A DNA stretch of 64,000 nt from Verrucomicrobiales bacterium (GTDB lineage: Bacteria; Verrucomicrobiota; Verrucomicrobiia; Verrucomicrobiales; DEV007). Positions 5,189 to 25,493 of this stretch are shown here, one piece after another. A program made the translations under genes and the position numbers. The first letter of the stretch is position 1, and every line of letters begins with the position of its first letter. A model generated the notes under the pieces. The model made no database searches. It worked only from the letters and a program-made list of their open reading frames with translations, and had not been told where the DNA came from. Location: positions 1 through 64,000 of the forward strand of contig JARGNI010000023.1 of assembly GCA_029213195.1 (NCBI GenBank), in the 5' to 3' direction.

Positions 5189-7906
5189 TCAGTCGTCGCT
5201 CTGCCTCCCGCTTTCTCCGAGCGGGATGGTCCTGGCGCCGAGGCTGATGTAGTCCTCCGGGGTGCAGGTCAGGAGAATGATCTGCAGCCCCTTGCAGCTA
5301 GCAAGGTCGAGCATGCTCTGCAGACTCTGGATCCGGCTGGGGTCCGAATTGGTAAAGGCGTCGTCGAAGACGACTGGGAGCGTGCCTCCGTGGTCCGCGG
5401 CGAGAATCTCGGCGAGCGCGAGTCGGACTGCCGCAGCGACCTGTTCCCGCGTTCCTCCACTGAGATCGGCAAACTCGAAGGTCCCCTGGTCCCGTGTCAT
5501 TGTCCATCCTCCGATGACCCCGTCGTCGACGGATACGGTGGCTCGAGCCGAAGGTCCAAAAATCTGGGCAAGGTAGGAAGTGACTTTTTCGGCCAGGGGC
5601 TGAGAGAATTGGTCGGAAAGTTTCTGCTGTTCTTCGGCAAACCGGTCGCGGAGCAGACGAATCGCTTCCGCTCGTTTCCAAAGGCTGCGATGACGGGCCT
5701 GCGCGGACTCGGCACGGGCCTTGGCGCGGGCGAGGCTGGCGACGGGGTCCGAGGATCCATCCTGGGAGAGAACGCTCTGGGCCACGGCTCGCTTTTGTCC
5801 GGCCGCTTCCAGCTCTGCTTTTCGCATTTCGAGGGCCCGGCTGAATCGGCTGATCGAAGCCTCGATGGTATCGGGAGACAGGGCCGCCCATTCTTTCTCC
5901 GAGGCTTCCCGTTTCCGATTGGCTTCCTCGAAAGCGGAGGTCAGGGAAGCGCGTTTTTCCTCCCAGGTTTCCGGATCGCCGAGGGGCTCTGACTTGGCCT
6001 GAAGAAGCGCCGCGAGTTCCAGTTGTTCCCGTTCCGCCGTCGAGATCGCTTTCTGAAGGCGGTCGATTTCTTCGATCGTGGTTTCCAGTACGGTTCGAGC
6101 TGCAGTGGTCTCCTGTCGCGCCGTTTGCAGCCCTTCCTCGAGAGATTCCAGCTGGTCGCGACAGGATTCCCAGAGGGTGCGCGCATCGGAGCGAGAATGG
6201 GGAGCCCCGAAGTCGGGACTGCGCTCGCTTCTCCGTTTCACCTCCGCTTCGTAGCGGATGATCTCCTGCTGGGCCTTCTCTTTCGCCTGTCGTCGCTCTT
6301 CGGGGTTTTCCTTGGACAGCTCCGAGTCGAGGATGCGCTTTTCGTCTTCCAGTGCCTGTCTCTCCGACCTGACCTGGCGGGCGTGTTCCAGATCCGGAAT
6401 CCCATGCTTGCGCAGGGCCGCGTCTTTTTTCTCGCGACGCTGTTTGGCTTCCGATCGGGCTCGTTCGAGGTCAGTGCCGCCCCCGGGCGTGATCCGGAGT
6501 TCGGCATCGGATCCGACCGAGATGGTAGTCTCCTCGTGGATGACGTGTTCCTTGCCGGTGGCGAGAGACTTCTCGCCGATGTGGATGGCAGAATCTGCGC
6601 GAATCACCTCGATGCCGGTCGACATGGCTTCCAACACGGCAGAGGCTTCCGAGGCTGCCATATCGAGATCCTGGAGGTGCTGGTAGGTGGCCTCGTCGAT
6701 GGCAGGGAGCGCGGCCAGTTTTTCGAGGATCTTCTTTCGGGCGGTCTCCTTGGCTTCGACTGCGTGGAGGGTCTCGTCGAGCGCGGCAATTTCTTCCCGG
6801 TTCTTGAGAAGGTGTCCCCAGGCCTCGGCGAGCTCCTTCTTTTCCCGGGCTTCGTCGAGAGATCTTTCTGCTTTCTCCAGCTTCGTGGAAAGGGTGGTCA
6901 GTCGGGAGCTCTCTTCCTCCTTTTTCTTTCCCAATGCCTCGAGCCGCTTCTGCTCGGGTTCGATTCGACTGAGGATCTCGAACTTCCGTGCTTCGAGGTG
7001 GGAGATCTCTTTCACGGCTCCCTGGAAGCTCTCGAGGTTCTGTTCAGCGGTGTCCTGGTTTCTCTTCTCGAGATCCATTCGGTGTCGAAGTTCGATGGTG
7101 GCCTTCGACTTCTCGCGCGCTTCCTCGAGTTGTGACTTGAGATCTGCAATCTGCGCTTCCCCCGAGGCGAGAACTGCCTCGGCTTCTTCGAAATCCGTCA
7201 TCGCCGATCGAAGTTTCTGGAGGGCGGAGGAGGCCTGGTTCAGCGCTTCTTCCGCTTCCTCCTTTTCCTGGTTGGCGAGGTAGAGATCGGAACCTGCCTT
7301 GGGTTGTCCTCCCTTGGTGAAGATGGCATCGAATTCCTCCTGGAAATGACGGGCAACCCGGCCGTCGAGATCGGATTGCATGACGGCGCCGCCTCCCTGT
7401 TCTTTCAATCGAGATAGCAGGGCATCTTTCTGGTCGGCGGCGTGTTCGGACGGGTCGTCTCCCCCGGAGCCCTGCCAGACCCAGAGGTGAGCCCATTGCG
7501 CGAGCGATTTCTTCGCGGCGGCGACTCCGCTCCCACCTTCCTCGACCTGCATCAATTCGGCAATCCTCGCTTCAGCATCGGACTGATGAAGTGTCGCGCC
7601 TCCTTCCTCTGTGAGGATCGTTTTTCCACTGGTCTTGCTGAAGACTTTTTTCAGGTCCCATCGCTTTCCGGAGGCTTCGAAGGAAATCTCCACTTCAGGA
7701 TGCCCGTTGTGAATGCTGGACTGCATCGCCTCCTGGATTTTCCCGCCGGTGGTGGCTTTGAGAAAAAGTCCCCGATGAATCGCCTCCGCGAGAGTGCTCT
7801 TCCCTGTTTCGTTCTTTCCCCCGATGAGAGTGAGGGAGTCCGAGAAGTCGACACTCACCTCCCGGTGGATGCGGTAGTTTCGGATCGTGGCAGAAAGCAG
7901 TCGCAT
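5189..7906 (-). CDS. SbcC/Rad50/YhaN-like ATPase with long coiled coils
   Basis: 905 residues. The Walker A motif GGKNETGKST is at residues 29-38, and the C-terminal lobe carries the ABC signature FADLSGGTREQ and a Walker B segment VVFDDAF. Between them lie two long coiled-coil arms rich in Glu, Lys and Ala. At the hinge there is no CxxC zinc hook; instead about 60 residues (near 410-475) look beta-rich, with SAIHIGEKSLATG and TTISVGSDAEL. It starts 6 nt after the stop of the SbcD-like gene, so the pair forms a two-gene operon acting on DNA ends in the cytoplasm. It resembles YhaN-type proteins as much as SbcC, so no symbol is given. Confidence 0.85.
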   Translation of the reverse strand: MRLLSATIRNYRIHREVSVDFSDSLTLIGGKNETGKSTLAEAIHRGLFLKATTGGKIQEAMQSSIHNGHPEVEISFEASGKRWDLKKVFSKTSGKTILTEEGGATLHQSDAEARIAELMQVEEGGSGVAAAKKSLAQWAHLWVWQGSGGDDPSEHAADQKDALLSRLKEQGGGAVMQSDLDGRVARHFQEEFDAIFTKGGQPKAGSDLYLANQEKEEAEEALNQASSALQKLRSAMTDFEEAEAVLASGEAQIADLKSQLEEAREKSKATIELRHRMDLEKRNQDTAEQNLESFQGAVKEISHLEARKFEILSRIEPEQKRLEALGKKKEEESSRLTTLSTKLEKAERSLDEAREKKELAEAWGHLLKNREEIAALDETLHAVEAKETARKKILEKLAALPAIDEATYQHLQDLDMAASEASAVLEAMSTGIEVIRADSAIHIGEKSLATGKEHVIHEETTISVGSDAELRITPGGGTDLERARSEAKQRREKKDAALRKHGIPDLEHARQVRSERQALEDEKRILDSELSKENPEERRQAKEKAQQEIIRYEAEVKRRSERSPDFGAPHSRSDARTLWESCRDQLESLEEGLQTARQETTAARTVLETTIEEIDRLQKAISTAEREQLELAALLQAKSEPLGDPETWEEKRASLTSAFEEANRKREASEKEWAALSPDTIEASISRFSRALEMRKAELEAAGQKRAVAQSVLSQDGSSDPVASLARAKARAESAQARHRSLWKRAEAIRLLRDRFAEEQQKLSDQFSQPLAEKVTSYLAQIFGPSARATVSVDDGVIGGWTMTRDQGTFEFADLSGGTREQVAAAVRLALAEILAADHGGTLPVVFDDAFTNSDPSRIQSLQSMLDLASCKGLQIILLTCTPEDYISLGARTIPLGESGRQSDD

Positions 7907-20029: not shown

Positions 20030-21337
20030 ATGTTTCCCGAGTTCATGGAGAAGACTCGGTCGACAAGAAAAGCATATGGAAGCGGAATCCAGGTTCTGCT
20101 TTCGATGGCTTGTGTTGTCCTCCTCGTTGCGGGTTTGAAAGCCGCTTCAAGCCTCTTTATCCCCATCATGCTGGGATTGTTTCTCGCCATGTTGTCGATG
20201 CCGATCCTGAATTGGCTGGATCGTCGGGGGCTTCCTCGTCCTTTGGCGGTTCTCATGACGATTCTCGTCGACCTGCTCATCCTCGGAGGAATCGTCTTTC
20301 TTACTTCTGGAGTGATCGGCAATTTCACGGAGAACAGCGTAGAGTATACCGAGAAATTGAGAAACCAGGCGGCTGAGTTTTCACGGACGATGGACCAGAA
20401 AATCGCTCAGTTGGAGCAACTCTGGTCCGAATCCGGGGAGAATGGACAGAAACCGGAATCAGCGCCGGTGGACAATTCTTCCCCTGCACCGGAGACCATC
20501 GTCGTCCCCGAGGTCTCTCCTCCTGCGGAAGGGGAAGTTTTGGAGGAGGATGGTCCGCCCCAGCTCGTTCCATCGATCACTTTCAGTAAGCTCTTTGATC
20601 TCTATTGGGATTCCAGCCGCATTCTTGAGTTTGTCGGTCAGATCGATGTGGTGAACCGTTTCACCTCATTGGCTTCGACGATCTTCTTCGCATTGATCGT
20701 AATGATCTTCGTTCTCGCCGAATCAGGCGGTTACGCCGAGAAAGTCAGAGCGGTGCTCCAGGTCCGGGGGCCAGATCTGCGCCGCTTCCAGAGTATCTCG
20801 AACGACATCCAGAAATACCTGGGCATCAAGACCGCCGTCAGCCTTCTCACCGGGGTGTTGGCGATGCTCGCCTGCCTCGCTTTTCGCGTCGATTTCCCGC
20901 TGCTCTGGGGCCTGGTTGCCTTTCTCTTCAACTTCGTCCCTGCGATCGGATCGATCCTCGCAGGGATCCCGCCCGTTCTGTTGGCCCTCATCCTTCACGG
21001 ATTCTGGCCCGCCACGGGGGTGCTGGCCTGCTATCTCGTCATCAATGTCGCGATCGGAAACTTCCTGGAGCCCATGTTGCTGGGAGATCGGTTCGGGATT
21101 TCCACTGTCATCGTGATTCTCTCCGTGCTTGTCTGGGGTTTCATTTGGGGCCCTGTCGGAATGCTGCTCGCTGTTCCCCTGACTATGCTGGTCAAGGTCA
21201 TGCTCGACAACAGTTCGGATCTTCGCTGGATCTCTGCCCTCATGGGGAAACGGAAAACTGATCTTGTTCCGGAAACGGATGATGAAGACCACGATGACGA
21301 GGAAGCCGAACTCGCCGTGGAAACTTCGGTGTCCTGA
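20030..21337 (+). CDS. AI-2E family transporter
   Basis: 435 residues (a second ATG at 20045 is possible). Hydrophobic segments lie near 20-75, 80-105 and 205-400. The family's C-terminal block is clear: FLFNFVPAIGSILAGIPPVLLALI and ACYLVINVAIGNFLEPMLLGDRFG. Between the membrane blocks is a periplasmic or cytoplasmic insert of about 90 residues rich in Pro and Glu (near 135-185). Members include TqsA and PerM; substrates range from autoinducer-2 to ions and are unknown here. The C-terminus is acidic (DDEDHDDEEAE). Confidence 0.87.
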   Translation: MFPEFMEKTRSTRKAYGSGIQVLLSMACVVLLVAGLKAASSLFIPIMLGLFLAMLSMPILNWLDRRGLPRPLAVLMTILVDLLILGGIVFLTSGVIGNFTENSVEYTEKLRNQAAEFSRTMDQKIAQLEQLWSESGENGQKPESAPVDNSSPAPETIVVPEVSPPAEGEVLEEDGPPQLVPSITFSKLFDLYWDSSRILEFVGQIDVVNRFTSLASTIFFALIVMIFVLAESGGYAEKVRAVLQVRGPDLRRFQSISNDIQKYLGIKTAVSLLTGVLAMLACLAFRVDFPLLWGLVAFLFNFVPAIGSILAGIPPVLLALILHGFWPATGVLACYLVINVAIGNFLEPMLLGDRFGISTVIVILSVLVWGFIWGPVGMLLAVPLTMLVKVMLDNSSDLRWISALMGKRKTDLVPETDDEDHDDEEAELAVETSVS

Positions 21338-21371: not shown

Positions 21372-22655
21372 ATGAAATCAGTCAGGATGAGGCGAATGAC
21401 TTGGCTCGGTGCGCTCGTGGTGGCGTGGTTCCACTTTCCGATCACGGGGCAGGACAGGACGGGCGAAGCGAGATGGCGTGAGATCTTTGAGAAAGCCGAT
21501 CAGAATTCTGACGGAAAGGTTTCCAGTAAGGAACTGGAAAACCAGGGGCGTCGAGGAAATTGGATCGCTCGTGCCGATGAGGACGGAGATGGGCTTGCCA
21601 CCTGGGAGGAGACCCAGAGGTTTCTTCAAATGTCCCTCGGGATTTCAAAGAATGGAGAGCAGGGGGAGAAACCGCAGGTCCTTCATGGGGATTGGAAGCC
21701 GGATGCACGGGTCTCTCTCTCCTCGGTCAAGGCCGCGGCCGAGTACTCCGCAGATCAGGGAGGCCACAGCTTTCTGCTGATGATCGATGGGGAAATCGTG
21801 TTCGAACGCTACGAGCCGGGGCGGACTCCGGAGGATCCCCATCGGCTTGCCAGCGGAACGAAGAGTTTCTCGGGGGTGATCCTTGCGGCAGCCGTTCAGG
21901 ACGGTCTCCTCACGCTTGATGAAAAAATCTCAAAGACGCTGCCCGAATGGAAAGACGATGAGCTCTTGTCTCGCATCACTTTTCGACAACTTCTCAGCCT
22001 GACGAGCGGGATCGATCCTGGAAGGGGCGGCAAAGTTCCGTCCTATCGCGAATCGGTGGAGACCGCGGCCGTTTCCGGGCCAGGGGAGAGATTTCGGTAT
22101 GGCCCCCAGGCCTTCCAGGTGTTTGGGGAAGTGATGCGACGGAAACTGGAAGCGAGCCCGGAGATTGAGGCGACCGATCCGCTGCGTTATCTCGAGAGTC
22201 GCGTCCTGGAGCCGGTCGGGATGAAAGTCAGTTCGTGGCGTCGGGACTCCGATGGGATGCCTCAACTTCCTTCGGGAGCTTTTCTCACGGCACGGGAATG
22301 GGCAAAGTTTGGGGAATTCCTGAGGAACGAAGGAAAGTGGGAGGGCACCCAGTTGATCGATCGAGAGACCCTTCGGGAATGCCTGAAGGGGACAAAGGCC
22401 AAATCCACCTACGGTCTGACTTTCTGGCTTCTTGAGCAGCCGAGAAAGGCAGGGGTTCCCGTCTGGGGACGTGGTGGCTACATGGCGGCCGGCGCCGGAA
22501 AGCAGCGACTTTATGTCCTGCCGGAGAAAGGGATCGTCGTCGCGAGGCAGGGGGAGAGTGTCCGTTTCGAAAATGAAAAGTTTCTCGGGCTTTTGTTGGG
22601 AACCAGCCAAGAGATACGGAAGGAAAAATCGCTTCGCGGATCGGATGGATTTTGA
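21372..22655 (+). CDS. Secreted serine hydrolase (class C beta-lactamase fold) with EF-hands
   Basis: 427 residues from the ATG at 21372; the open frame begins at 21264 inside the permease gene. Signal peptide near 9-26. Two EF-hand loops precede the enzyme: DQNSDGKVSSKE (43-54) and DEDGDGLATWEE (69-80). The catalytic SxxK is S161-K164 in ASGTKSFSG, and YGPQAFQVF near residue 238 holds the likely Tyr. This fold covers esterases, DD-peptidases and beta-lactamases; substrate unknown. Start lies 34 nt after the permease stop, so co-transcription is likely. Confidence 0.82.
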   Translation: MKSVRMRRMTWLGALVVAWFHFPITGQDRTGEARWREIFEKADQNSDGKVSSKELENQGRRGNWIARADEDGDGLATWEETQRFLQMSLGISKNGEQGEKPQVLHGDWKPDARVSLSSVKAAAEYSADQGGHSFLLMIDGEIVFERYEPGRTPEDPHRLASGTKSFSGVILAAAVQDGLLTLDEKISKTLPEWKDDELLSRITFRQLLSLTSGIDPGRGGKVPSYRESVETAAVSGPGERFRYGPQAFQVFGEVMRRKLEASPEIEATDPLRYLESRVLEPVGMKVSSWRRDSDGMPQLPSGAFLTAREWAKFGEFLRNEGKWEGTQLIDRETLRECLKGTKAKSTYGLTFWLLEQPRKAGVPVWGRGGYMAAGAGKQRLYVLPEKGIVVARQGESVRFENEKFLGLLLGTSQEIRKEKSLRGSDGF

Positions 22656-22667
22656 TACGAATGAAGG

Positions 22668-22994
22668 ATGAAGAAGTCCATTTTCTTTCTCTTTGTCTCA
22701 CTCTTTTTTCTCAGTGCCTGCACGGTAGAAGAGGAGCCGCCGGCATCGCCAGATCCAGGGGAAGAGACTACGGAAGTGCCTGCTGAGACGGAGACTCCAG
22801 TTTCCGAATCAAAGGACAACGATTTTCTCGGGCTGAGCCTTGAAGAAGCTGAGGCACTTGCCGAGAAACGGGGGATGCCTCATCGCGTGATTTCGGTCGA
22901 TGGTGAAGCGCGGCCGGCCTCAGCCGACTACCGTCCCGACCGAGTCAGTTTTGAGATCGAGGATGGGAAAGTGACCAAGGTAGACCGGGGCTGA
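22668..22994 (+). CDS. Lipoprotein with I78-like peptidase-inhibitor domain
   Basis: 108 residues. Lipobox LSAC with the lipidated Cys at 18, then an acidic Pro/Glu-rich linker (to about 48). The C-terminal 55 residues match the I78 pattern: LGLSLEEAEALAEKRG, HRVISVDGEARPASADYRPDR, then FEIEDGKVTKV. The classical W and Cys positions of some I78 members are absent. It begins 12 nt after the serine hydrolase gene and is followed by ecotin, a second protease inhibitor. The inhibitory role is inferred from sequence pattern. Confidence 0.75.
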   Translation: MKKSIFFLFVSLFFLSACTVEEEPPASPDPGEETTEVPAETETPVSESKDNDFLGLSLEEAEALAEKRGMPHRVISVDGEARPASADYRPDRVSFEIEDGKVTKVDRG

Positions 22995-23046
22995 TTTGCT
23001 CAGGGGCTTTTTTGCAAGACTACGGCAACTCATTCGTATTTTTCTT

Positions 23047-23532
23047 ATGAAACTCATCACACCCATTCCGCTCTTGATTCTCACGTTTGCCTTGTTCGGT
23101 GGAACTGGAATCTCCCAGGACGATCTGAAGCCCTATGCCTCCCCGAAGGAGAGCCAGGTGCGTCACGTGGTCCGATTGCCTGTTCTCGAAAAGGGAGAAG
23201 AGGAGAATCGAAAAATCGAGATTGTCGTCAGCAAGACCGAGATGCTGGACAGTGTGAATCGTTATTTTTACGGCGGAAAGATCGAGCAGAAAACGGTCCA
23301 GGGCTGGGGCTACTCCTATTACGAACTGGAGAAGGTGGGCCCTCTTGCTGGCACTAGGATGGCAGCGCCTCCGGGATCCCCGAAAGTAGAACGAAAAGTA
23401 CGGGTCAACGGAGGGCTCGATCTGCTGCGCTACAACAGCAAGCTCCCTGTAGTCGTCTACACTCCCGAGGGATTCGATGTGGAGGTCCGGATCTGGTCGG
23501 CAGGGGACGCTTTGCAGGCCAAGCCGGAATAA
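23047..23532 (+). CDS. eco: Ecotin, serine-protease inhibitor
   Basis: 161 residues from the ATG at 23047; the frame opens at 22996, but the later start gives a clean signal peptide (residues 1-23). Ecotin signatures are GGKIEQKTVQGWGYSYYELEKV (about 76-97, shortened here) and LLRYNSKLPVVVYTP (126-140). Ecotin is a periplasmic dimer that blocks trypsin-fold proteases. By alignment from memory with E. coli ecotin, the P1 residue is R104 (E. coli Met84), and the two Cys of the E. coli disulfide are S69 and A107, so the bond is absent. It follows the I78-like lipoprotein gene on the same strand. Confidence 0.9.
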   Translation: MKLITPIPLLILTFALFGGTGISQDDLKPYASPKESQVRHVVRLPVLEKGEEENRKIEIVVSKTEMLDSVNRYFYGGKIEQKTVQGWGYSYYELEKVGPLAGTRMAAPPGSPKVERKVRVNGGLDLLRYNSKLPVVVYTPEGFDVEVRIWSAGDALQAKPE

Positions 23533-23598: not shown

Positions 23599-23680
23599 GT
23601 CGCTCCGGTGCTCAGCAAGATCGGTTTTCGCGATATTTCTGCGTGACAATCCTGTCGCGAACGCTTTGGTCGAAGGAGTC

Positions 23681-24970
23681 ATGATCATTCCTCCGTCCGC
23701 ACTTTCGGAGCCGTTCTACGAAGGATCGGTCCAGCGTCTCTTCGCGGTCCCCGCCGACGACTCGGTCATGGTGACGGAGACGACCTCGCGGGGATCGGTT
23801 TTCGATGTCGGCGCTCTCTTTGAAATCGGAGGGAATGATGTCAATCGAGCTCTCTTCCGCCACGTGCTCTACACTCGCATGGGGGATCCCGCATTGTGGC
23901 AACGAGTCCGCAAGGCGATCGAGTCCGAACCGGATCTTTCGGACTTCGTTCGGGATGAACTGCTCTCGGGAGCCCTCGAGTCCTGTTGCGAAAGAGGCGC
24001 TCGCACTCATCACGAAGGAATGCTCGATGCGGTGACGGGAGAGGTCGTGCGGGATGGGGTGCCGGAGAATCCCAGCGCTTGTAACGTCGTTCGGAAATAC
24101 CAGATTTTGAAACCGAGCCGGGTCGAGTTCCTCGGAGCGCATCTTTTCGACTACAGCCAGTTTCCCCAGGAGGACCGATTCGTCGTTCCTCTCGAGTATA
24201 TTGTTCGATTTGGGATCACGAGTGCGAGTTCGGTCTATCGGAAGTATCAGGCGATGGACGGCGCGGCACGCAAGGCGTTCGAACAGGAGCTGGGAGTGTC
24301 CAAGGCGTTGGAAGCCTGGCAATACCTGGAGCGTCCGATTGGAGATTTTACCAGCAAGTTCGAACCCGAGGACCGAATGGTCAGCAAGCAGGAGGCGCTT
24401 GCGATGTGCGGACTGACCGGGGCTCAGTTTGCGGACAGCGGAAAACTGGCGATTCTCGGGGCCTGGGCGGTTCGTCTCCTCGTTGAGGAAATCGGGCTGC
24501 GGATGTGGGACATCAAGTGGGAGTTCGCCAAGGACGGCGACGATCTCGTCTTTGTCGACACGATCGATACCGACAGCTTCCGCGCGACGATGTTTCTCGA
24601 ACACGAGGGTGAACGGTTCGTGAATCACTACAACAAGCAGGCGATGCGGGACTATTTCACCTTGCTCCATGGCGACTGGATCGAGGACATCAAGACTGCC
24701 AAGGCACTTGGGCAACAGGAAGGGGTCGCCTTCACAGAGATTCTCGCGGCGGGTCAGGCCGAAGGGCGCTACGCGAAGACTCCCCAAGTGGACCTCGGCT
24801 TCCTTGCTCTCCAGGAGTCGAAGATGACGGCCATCCGCGAGTACATGCTCGGCGAAACCGACGCTGAACCGGTTCGGGAGCGGTTGGAAACCACGGGGAT
24901 CGAAGAGATTCGATTCTACCAGGAAAAAGGAGTCCTCGATGGATTTCGCAAAATAAACGGCATCTCTTAA
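23681..24970 (+). CDS. purC: SAICAR synthase (PurC), long divergent form
   Basis: 429 residues from the ATG at 23681, chosen because GAAGGAG lies 5 nt upstream; a TTG at 23666 is less likely. Typical PurC is 235-300 residues. Shared features are YEGSVQRLFAVP near residue 13 (ATP-binding start), VVPLEYIVRFGI near 170 and GLRMWDIKWEFAKDG with FVDTIDTDSFRAT near 270-300. The enzyme joins CAIR and aspartate to give SAICAR. It heads a purine operon: purS, purL, purQ, purM and purF follow. The extra length is spread through the middle and a C-terminal extension. Identity rests on motifs plus context. Confidence 0.78.
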   Translation: MIIPPSALSEPFYEGSVQRLFAVPADDSVMVTETTSRGSVFDVGALFEIGGNDVNRALFRHVLYTRMGDPALWQRVRKAIESEPDLSDFVRDELLSGALESCCERGARTHHEGMLDAVTGEVVRDGVPENPSACNVVRKYQILKPSRVEFLGAHLFDYSQFPQEDRFVVPLEYIVRFGITSASSVYRKYQAMDGAARKAFEQELGVSKALEAWQYLERPIGDFTSKFEPEDRMVSKQEALAMCGLTGAQFADSGKLAILGAWAVRLLVEEIGLRMWDIKWEFAKDGDDLVFVDTIDTDSFRATMFLEHEGERFVNHYNKQAMRDYFTLLHGDWIEDIKTAKALGQQEGVAFTEILAAGQAEGRYAKTPQVDLGFLALQESKMTAIREYMLGETDAEPVRERLETTGIEEIRFYQEKGVLDGFRKINGIS

Positions 24971-24987
24971 CCATGTGCGGTTGACTC
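24969..24987. repeat. Partial copy of the AACC...GGTTGACTC motif
   Basis: AACC (24969-24972) and GGTTGACTC (24979-24987) resemble one arm of the 9171 element, in the 73-nt purC-purS gap. Weaker than the other copies. Confidence 0.3.
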
Positions 24988-25043
24988 GCCCCGATTCCGG
25001 CCTACGGAGAGGAAACCCTTCACTGAAAATCCCATCTGCCATC

Positions 25044-25493
25044 ATGCGGGAATTATTCGAAATCAGCGACCGGTATATCGAACCGGGCGATGCCAATGGG
25101 CTCCTTTACGAGCCACTCGAAAATGGAATGACCTATCGCGCGACAACGCGCTACGAGGTCGAATTCGAGGGGGAAAAGGAAGCTCTTGAGGCGTTTATTG
25201 AAAAGACGCTCCTCGATCCCATCAGCCAGGAGCTGCACGAGGGGGACGATCCCGCGCTCACAGATTTCACCTTCGTTCTCGAGTATGGGATGAAGCCCGG
25301 GGCACTCGACCTCGAGAAGGAGGCCATCATGACCTACTACCGGGGAATCGAAGAACCCGGTTTCGAGCTGAAAAGCCTAACGATTCGTCAGCGACTCTAC
25401 CTCTTCGGTGGCAGTGCAGATGAGTCCGATCGATTCATTCGTGACATTTGCAATGCGGCCATTCACAACTGGAACGTGATCTCAGCAGGATGA
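25044..25493 (+). CDS. purS: PurS-like FGAM synthase subunit with N-terminal extension
   Basis: 149 residues, about twice usual PurS. The second half (about 78-149) follows the PurS pattern: EYGMKPGALDLEKEAIM, then LKSLTIRQRLYL, then FIRDICNAAIHNWNVI. The first half may be a degenerate second copy (ATTRYEVEFEGEKEALEAF). PurS is the small structural subunit that links PurL and PurQ in the three-part FGAM synthase. Its stop overlaps the purL start by 4 nt, and purQ follows purL, which supports the call. Confidence 0.75.
   Translation: MRELFEISDRYIEPGDANGLLYEPLENGMTYRATTRYEVEFEGEKEALEAFIEKTLLDPISQELHEGDDPALTDFTFVLEYGMKPGALDLEKEAIMTYYRGIEEPGFELKSLTIRQRLYLFGGSADESDRFIRDICNAAIHNWNVISAG

Follow-up and report, generated by a model that had tools for sequence, protein, structure and literature searches.

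Ecotins are homodimeric inhibitors of trypsin-fold proteases. Ecotin is reported to protect Pseudomonas biofilms (PMC5893882) and Salmonella (PMC11977995) from proteases. In CI-2-like inhibitors, a second and unrelated group, the binding loop is held by residues P2, P6′, and P8′ (PMC3115953); conservation of P6′ and P8′ is a hallmark of the family, and the loop nomenclature used below is taken from the same study.

We analyzed a stretch of 64,000 nucleotides (the window) from a Verrucomicrobiales genome assembled in 115 contigs. In a preliminary description, two unrelated protease inhibitors coded side by side, an I78-like lipoprotein and an ecotin, had been proposed to form an envelope defense together with the serine hydrolase just upstream. 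The features of this locus are as follows.

20030 to 21337, + strand: AI-2E family transporter, the conserved left flank of the locus
21372 to 22655, + strand: exported serine hydrolase with an EF-hand and a Beta-lactamase-fold domain (SxxK motif SGTK)
22668 to 22994, + strand: lipoprotein with signal peptide, lipobox, linker, and C-terminal CI-2/I78-like domain
22725 to 22814, + strand: acidic, Pro-rich linker of ~30 aa (residues ~20 to 49, approximate) between the lipid anchor and the putative inhibitor domain
22917 to 22949, + strand: predicted reactive-site loop A-S-A/D-Y-R-P-D-R-V-S (the slash separates P1 from P1′), deduced from alignment with CI-2/LUTI
23047 to 23532, + strand: ecotin with a Sec-type signal peptide, PF03974 domain, and Arg at P1; disulfide cysteines absent
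23666 to 24970, + strand: SAICAR-synthetase-like gene, the conserved right flank, followed by purL/purQ

A lipid-anchored domain with a CI-2-like predicted fold

The lipoprotein gene is present as first described: its open reading frame encodes 108 aa, and the lipobox (LSAC) contains Cys19 followed by Thr at position +2. The C-terminal domain, residues ~50 to 108, comprises 59 residues and is cysteine-free. Relatives drawn from the genus, order, and class gave a family alignment of 28 to 31 members, in which the linker varies in both length and composition; those with names are metagenome-assembled genomes (MAGs) labeled Verrucomicrobiales, Verrucomicrobiia, or Akkermansiaceae.

Searched alone, the lipoprotein matched neither I78 (PF11720) nor PF00280 at an E value of <1; Pfam and NCBIfam were uninformative, and phmmer against the Protein Data Bank (PDB) returned zero matches. 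Since the single protein had no useful Pfam E value, the term "I78-like" could not be accepted from one search. A PF11720 search of the same genome and of the phylum found nothing above the cutoff, but control genomes were likewise negative, so absence is not implied. Among 28 relatives, 7 matched PF11720 weakly (best E value, 0.0099), 9 matched PASTA weakly, and the best PF00280 match (E value, 0.057) fell below the Pfam cutoff. The family profile produced 37 PDB hits, mostly CI-2/LUTI/BGIT/AFUEI (AFUEI being an elastase inhibitor of the I78 family) and including Cucurbita trypsin inhibitor V, each of them marginal (E values of 0.18 to 1).

An AlphaFold model of the domain, built from a 15-sequence alignment, reached a pLDDT of 85.8. 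The best 50 Foldseek matches listed were all CI-2, eglin c, LUTI, BGIT, or other potato-inhibitor-I structures (probabilities of 0.93 to 1.00, and 1.00 for CI-2). Structural realignment with VIA gave a Z score of 7.7 against CI-2 (root mean square deviation [rmsd], 2.9; 61 residues) and 5.1 against the I78 structure AFUEI; the sole unrelated entry among the 50 rows shown scored 4.0. We also compared the family profile with annotated bacterial I78 proteins, which were fetched with an I78 bait consensus that served no other purpose; five of them were checked against Pfam, and the set itself found AFUEI at 1.3e-8. The hhalign comparison aligned 35 columns, covering the loop and C-terminal half, at 97% and an E value of 1.1e-10. 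Bacterial I78 proteins carry a Cys at each end of the domain, whereas neither the window domain nor its family alignments have one there. By predicted fold and loop, the domain belongs with the I13/I78 group, but it lacks two features of I78 proteins. The earlier label thus survives in part: the family profile and predicted fold fall in the potato-inhibitor-I/I78 group, but a single-sequence Pfam match and the end cysteines are missing. We would describe the modeled domain as a CI-2/I78-like inhibitor domain that is lipid-anchored and free of cysteines.

A conserved loop with a variable P1

In the window protein, the predicted loop has Ser85 at P2, Ala86 at P1, Asp87 at P1′, Arg92 at P6′, and Ser94 at P8′. 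Across 31 family members, P2 is Thr in 28, P1′ is Asp in 29, P8′ is Asn in 29, and P6′ is Arg in every one. P1 itself may be Met, Arg, Lys, Thr, Ala, Leu, Ser, Gln, or Gly; its entropy is 2.77 bits, against 0.46 and 0.41 bits for the flanking columns, and four alignment columns besides P1 vary even more. A hypervariable P1 amid a conserved loop would fit a canonical inhibitor with changing targets, and surface exposure could contribute. The window copy may have a weaker or dead loop, because it has Ser at P8′ (Asn in the family, Arg/Trp in plants) and Ser in place of Thr at P2.

These patterns bear on the possibility that the domain is an inhibitor look-alike, a non-inhibitory structural or ligand-binding module of PASTA-like or generic CI-2-like scaffold. 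The weak PASTA matches noted above and the use of the domain at the C terminus of EF-hand and other proteins are consistent with such a role, as is the degenerate loop of L067/L098. We nevertheless consider it unlikely, since the fold matches are protease inhibitors and not PASTA domains, the residues supporting the loop are strongly conserved, and variability within the loop is concentrated at P1. Some members may also be non-inhibitory, because the loop is degenerate in L067/L098 and P1 is acidic in L117/L118.

The domain occurs in several other settings. In L098/L067 (G301:C47), it is fused to a 300-aa protein that has no Pfam match; the inhibitor loop is degenerate (ALKSLSWQADRV), and a CDCSG motif in the fusion partner is suggestive of an NlpC/P60-like peptidase. 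L117 and L118 (Acidimicrobiales MAGs; ~5989 to 6171) have the domain at the C terminus of a longer actinobacterial lipoprotein, far from Verrucomicrobiia, with Glu and Asp at P1. It is fused to a three-EF-hand protein in L097/L072 (G312:C86) and present as two tandem copies within one exported protein, without a lipobox, in L106/L013 (G241:C11). Tandem lipoprotein copies that differ at P1 were found in L110 (5926 to 6536; Thr and Arg), L113 (5941 to 6538), L079, and L163.

The neighboring ecotin

The ecotin reported at this locus was borne out by a match to PF03974 over profile positions 2 to 122 of 122 (E value, 1.1e-33; 116 bits versus a cutoff of 22.2). It matched solved ecotins at 1e-27 and NCBIfam PRK03719 at 6e-38, a value below that model's cutoff. 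The TTG listed at 22996 shares the reading frame of the ATG at 23047, and an ATG start yields an ordinary Sec signal peptide; both inhibitor proteins are predicted to be exported. When the protein is aligned with solved ecotins, GTRMAA falls on their reactive-site segment, which assigns Arg to P1; the position is occupied by Leu in most of the verrucomicrobial ecotins compared and by Met84 in E. coli ecotin. Because its base composition (GC, 0.549) is the same as that of its neighbors (0.550 to 0.582), the gene shows no compositional sign of recent foreign origin.

Two unrelated serine protease inhibitor folds, with inhibition predicted, therefore do lie side by side, as had been noticed. The lipoprotein stop codon and the ecotin ATG are separated by 52 bases on the same strand; a promoter and terminator scan found no more than expected by chance, and no terminator-like site lies between the two genes. 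Proximity, one strand, the lack of an intervening terminator-like site, and the complementary predicted P1 residues (Ala versus Arg) could all be expected of a functional pair jointly defending the envelope against host, predator, or competitor proteases, and the protection afforded by ecotin in Pseudomonas and Salmonella would be compatible with that role. Moreover, all six ecotin-bearing genomes of the genus have the hydrolase-lipoprotein locus, compared with 13 of 34 that have a close hydrolase (hypergeometric probability, 0.0013, for genomes that are related). This co-occurrence is no test of function, the genomes being related.

The distribution of the genes argues against such a pair. 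Six of the 34 genus genomes carry an ecotin gene, and so do 19 of the 286 genomes sampled from the class, but the gene adjoins the lipoprotein only in the window genome; across the 34 same-genus genomes and the family and class samples, no second case of ecotin at the lipoprotein locus was found. The five ecotins of genus-mates form their own clade (support, 100/99), apart from that of the window, and lie on other contigs at another site. The window ecotin thus represents a separate arrival, at a spot that accepts varied genes. Adjacency of the inhibitors is no evidence of a joint system, and we regard a functional pair as quite improbable. The preliminary description had itself named uniqueness to this strain as a result that would count against the pair, and this is what the comparison found, which lends no support to a single defense unit. 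A role in envelope defense is plausible for each inhibitor separately, given their folds and predicted export.

The upstream hydrolase as recurrent partner

The gene just upstream was correctly described as a serine hydrolase: it encodes an EF-hand protein that matches Beta-lactamase PF00144 at 8e-24 and ends 12 bases before the lipoprotein. In four genomes (G336, G339, G332, and G516) the hydrolase and inhibitor domain form a single open reading frame, one of which was run against Pfam. The fusion may have been a single event, because these genomes are close in the ecotin tree. A structural model of the fused protein was unusable for domain arrangement (pLDDT, 43.7) and only repeated the small domain. 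Adjacency and fusion mark the upstream S12-type hydrolase as the recurrent partner, and its association with the lipoprotein is better supported than that of ecotin.

Several genomes of the genus share a BamB-like gene (opposite strand), the AI-2E transporter, the serine hydrolase, the lipoprotein, the SAICAR-synthetase-like gene, a small DUF, purL, and purQ; others retain only part of this neighborhood. The interval between the transporter and SAICAR-synthetase-like genes is variable. G340 has an alpha/beta-hydrolase esterase there and G543 a 335-aa protein of unknown family; G341 and G520 encode the lipoprotein twice, and other genomes have nothing extra. Two copies are also present in G342 and L113, but with a left flank that was different or not seen.

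Two further observations concern gene context. Between the SAICAR-synthetase-like gene and purL, a conserved 172-aa protein (24975 to 25493) had no convincing Pfam match; judging by its position, its role may be PurS-like or purine-related. A different but likewise recurrent neighborhood was seen in another family of the order: in L099, L101, L102, and L107, the lipoprotein gene has an mnmG-like gene nearby and, in some of them, a dehydrogenase-complex component as well.

Instead of being directed at foreign proteases, the CI-2-like domain might regulate or target the hydrolase itself, as a pro-domain-like intramolecular inhibitor or a substrate mimic. Adjacency of the genes in several genomes and their fusion in four speak for this reading, but we hold it to be very doubtful: many relatives (G286, G312, G324, G330, G334, and G342, along with genomes from a second family of the order) keep the lipoprotein without an adjoining hydrolase, hydrolase homologues in other genera (L168 to L170) have no neighboring inhibitor domain, and S12-type enzymes are not known to be targets of CI-2-like inhibitors.

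Proposed function

In the reading that we favor, and consider likely, the lipoprotein is a cysteine-free serine protease inhibitor with the CI-2/eglin c/I78 fold and a lipid anchor, the hydrolase is its evolutionary partner, and the ecotin was acquired independently. Each of the two proteins is probably an exported serine protease inhibitor. We infer activity, location, targets, and a protective role as follows. At the envelope, a flexible linker would hold out the canonical binding loop of the lipoprotein. Which serine protease is blocked, extracellular or periplasmic, would depend on P1, which is Ala in the window copy and Met, Arg, Lys, or Thr in relatives; Ala would suggest an elastase- or subtilisin-like target. 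Ecotin would be a second inhibitor, with a trypsin-like preference expected from Arg at P1; its gene occupies the variable spot that separates the inhibitor gene from the purine genes, and it may broaden the range of proteases blocked. In a subclade, the CI-2-like domain is attached covalently to the exported S12-type hydrolase; the domain would most likely shield the hydrolase, or the surface where the hydrolase works, from proteolysis. A broader proposal, that a cysteine-free, lipid-anchored CI-2-like family with a fast-evolving P1 has become a covalent or neighboring partner of a secreted S12-type hydrolase in Verrucomicrobiia and acts as its built-in shield or regulator, is put forward tentatively, as a possibility we hold to be less than likely.

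With this analysis, the CI-2/I78 inhibitor fold would come to include a family of lipoproteins missed by the profile libraries searched; the family offers a testable natural loop series (P1 Met, Arg, Lys, Thr, and Ala) on one scaffold. It also illustrates that an eye-catching gene pair can arise from a variable insertion spot instead of a functional unit.

Comparison with known inhibitors

With potato inhibitor I (MEROPS I13, PF00280; CI-2, eglin c, LUTI, and BGIT), the lipoprotein family shares a predicted fold of a helix, strands, and an exposed loop, as well as the loop pattern T-P1-D-[YF]-R-x-D-R with an invariant P6′ Arg. It differs in being bacterial, lipid-anchored, and below the Pfam cutoff, and in having Asn at P8′ (Ser in the window copy), where the plant proteins have Arg/Trp. 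With I78 (PF11720; AFUEI and the bacterial "I78 family peptidase inhibitor"), the C-terminal half containing the loop can be aligned, and P8′ is Asn in some I78 proteins as well (L122, L126, and L127); the lipoprotein domain, however, lacks the N- and C-terminal cysteine pair, has a different N-terminal half, and has no Pfam match above the cutoff. The second gene product agrees with ecotin (MEROPS I11, PF03974) over its whole length, including the GWGY motif and the RYNSKLPVVVY segment. It differs from the E. coli protein in having Arg for Met at P1 and, like most of the other verrucomicrobial ecotins compared, in lacking that protein's cysteines.
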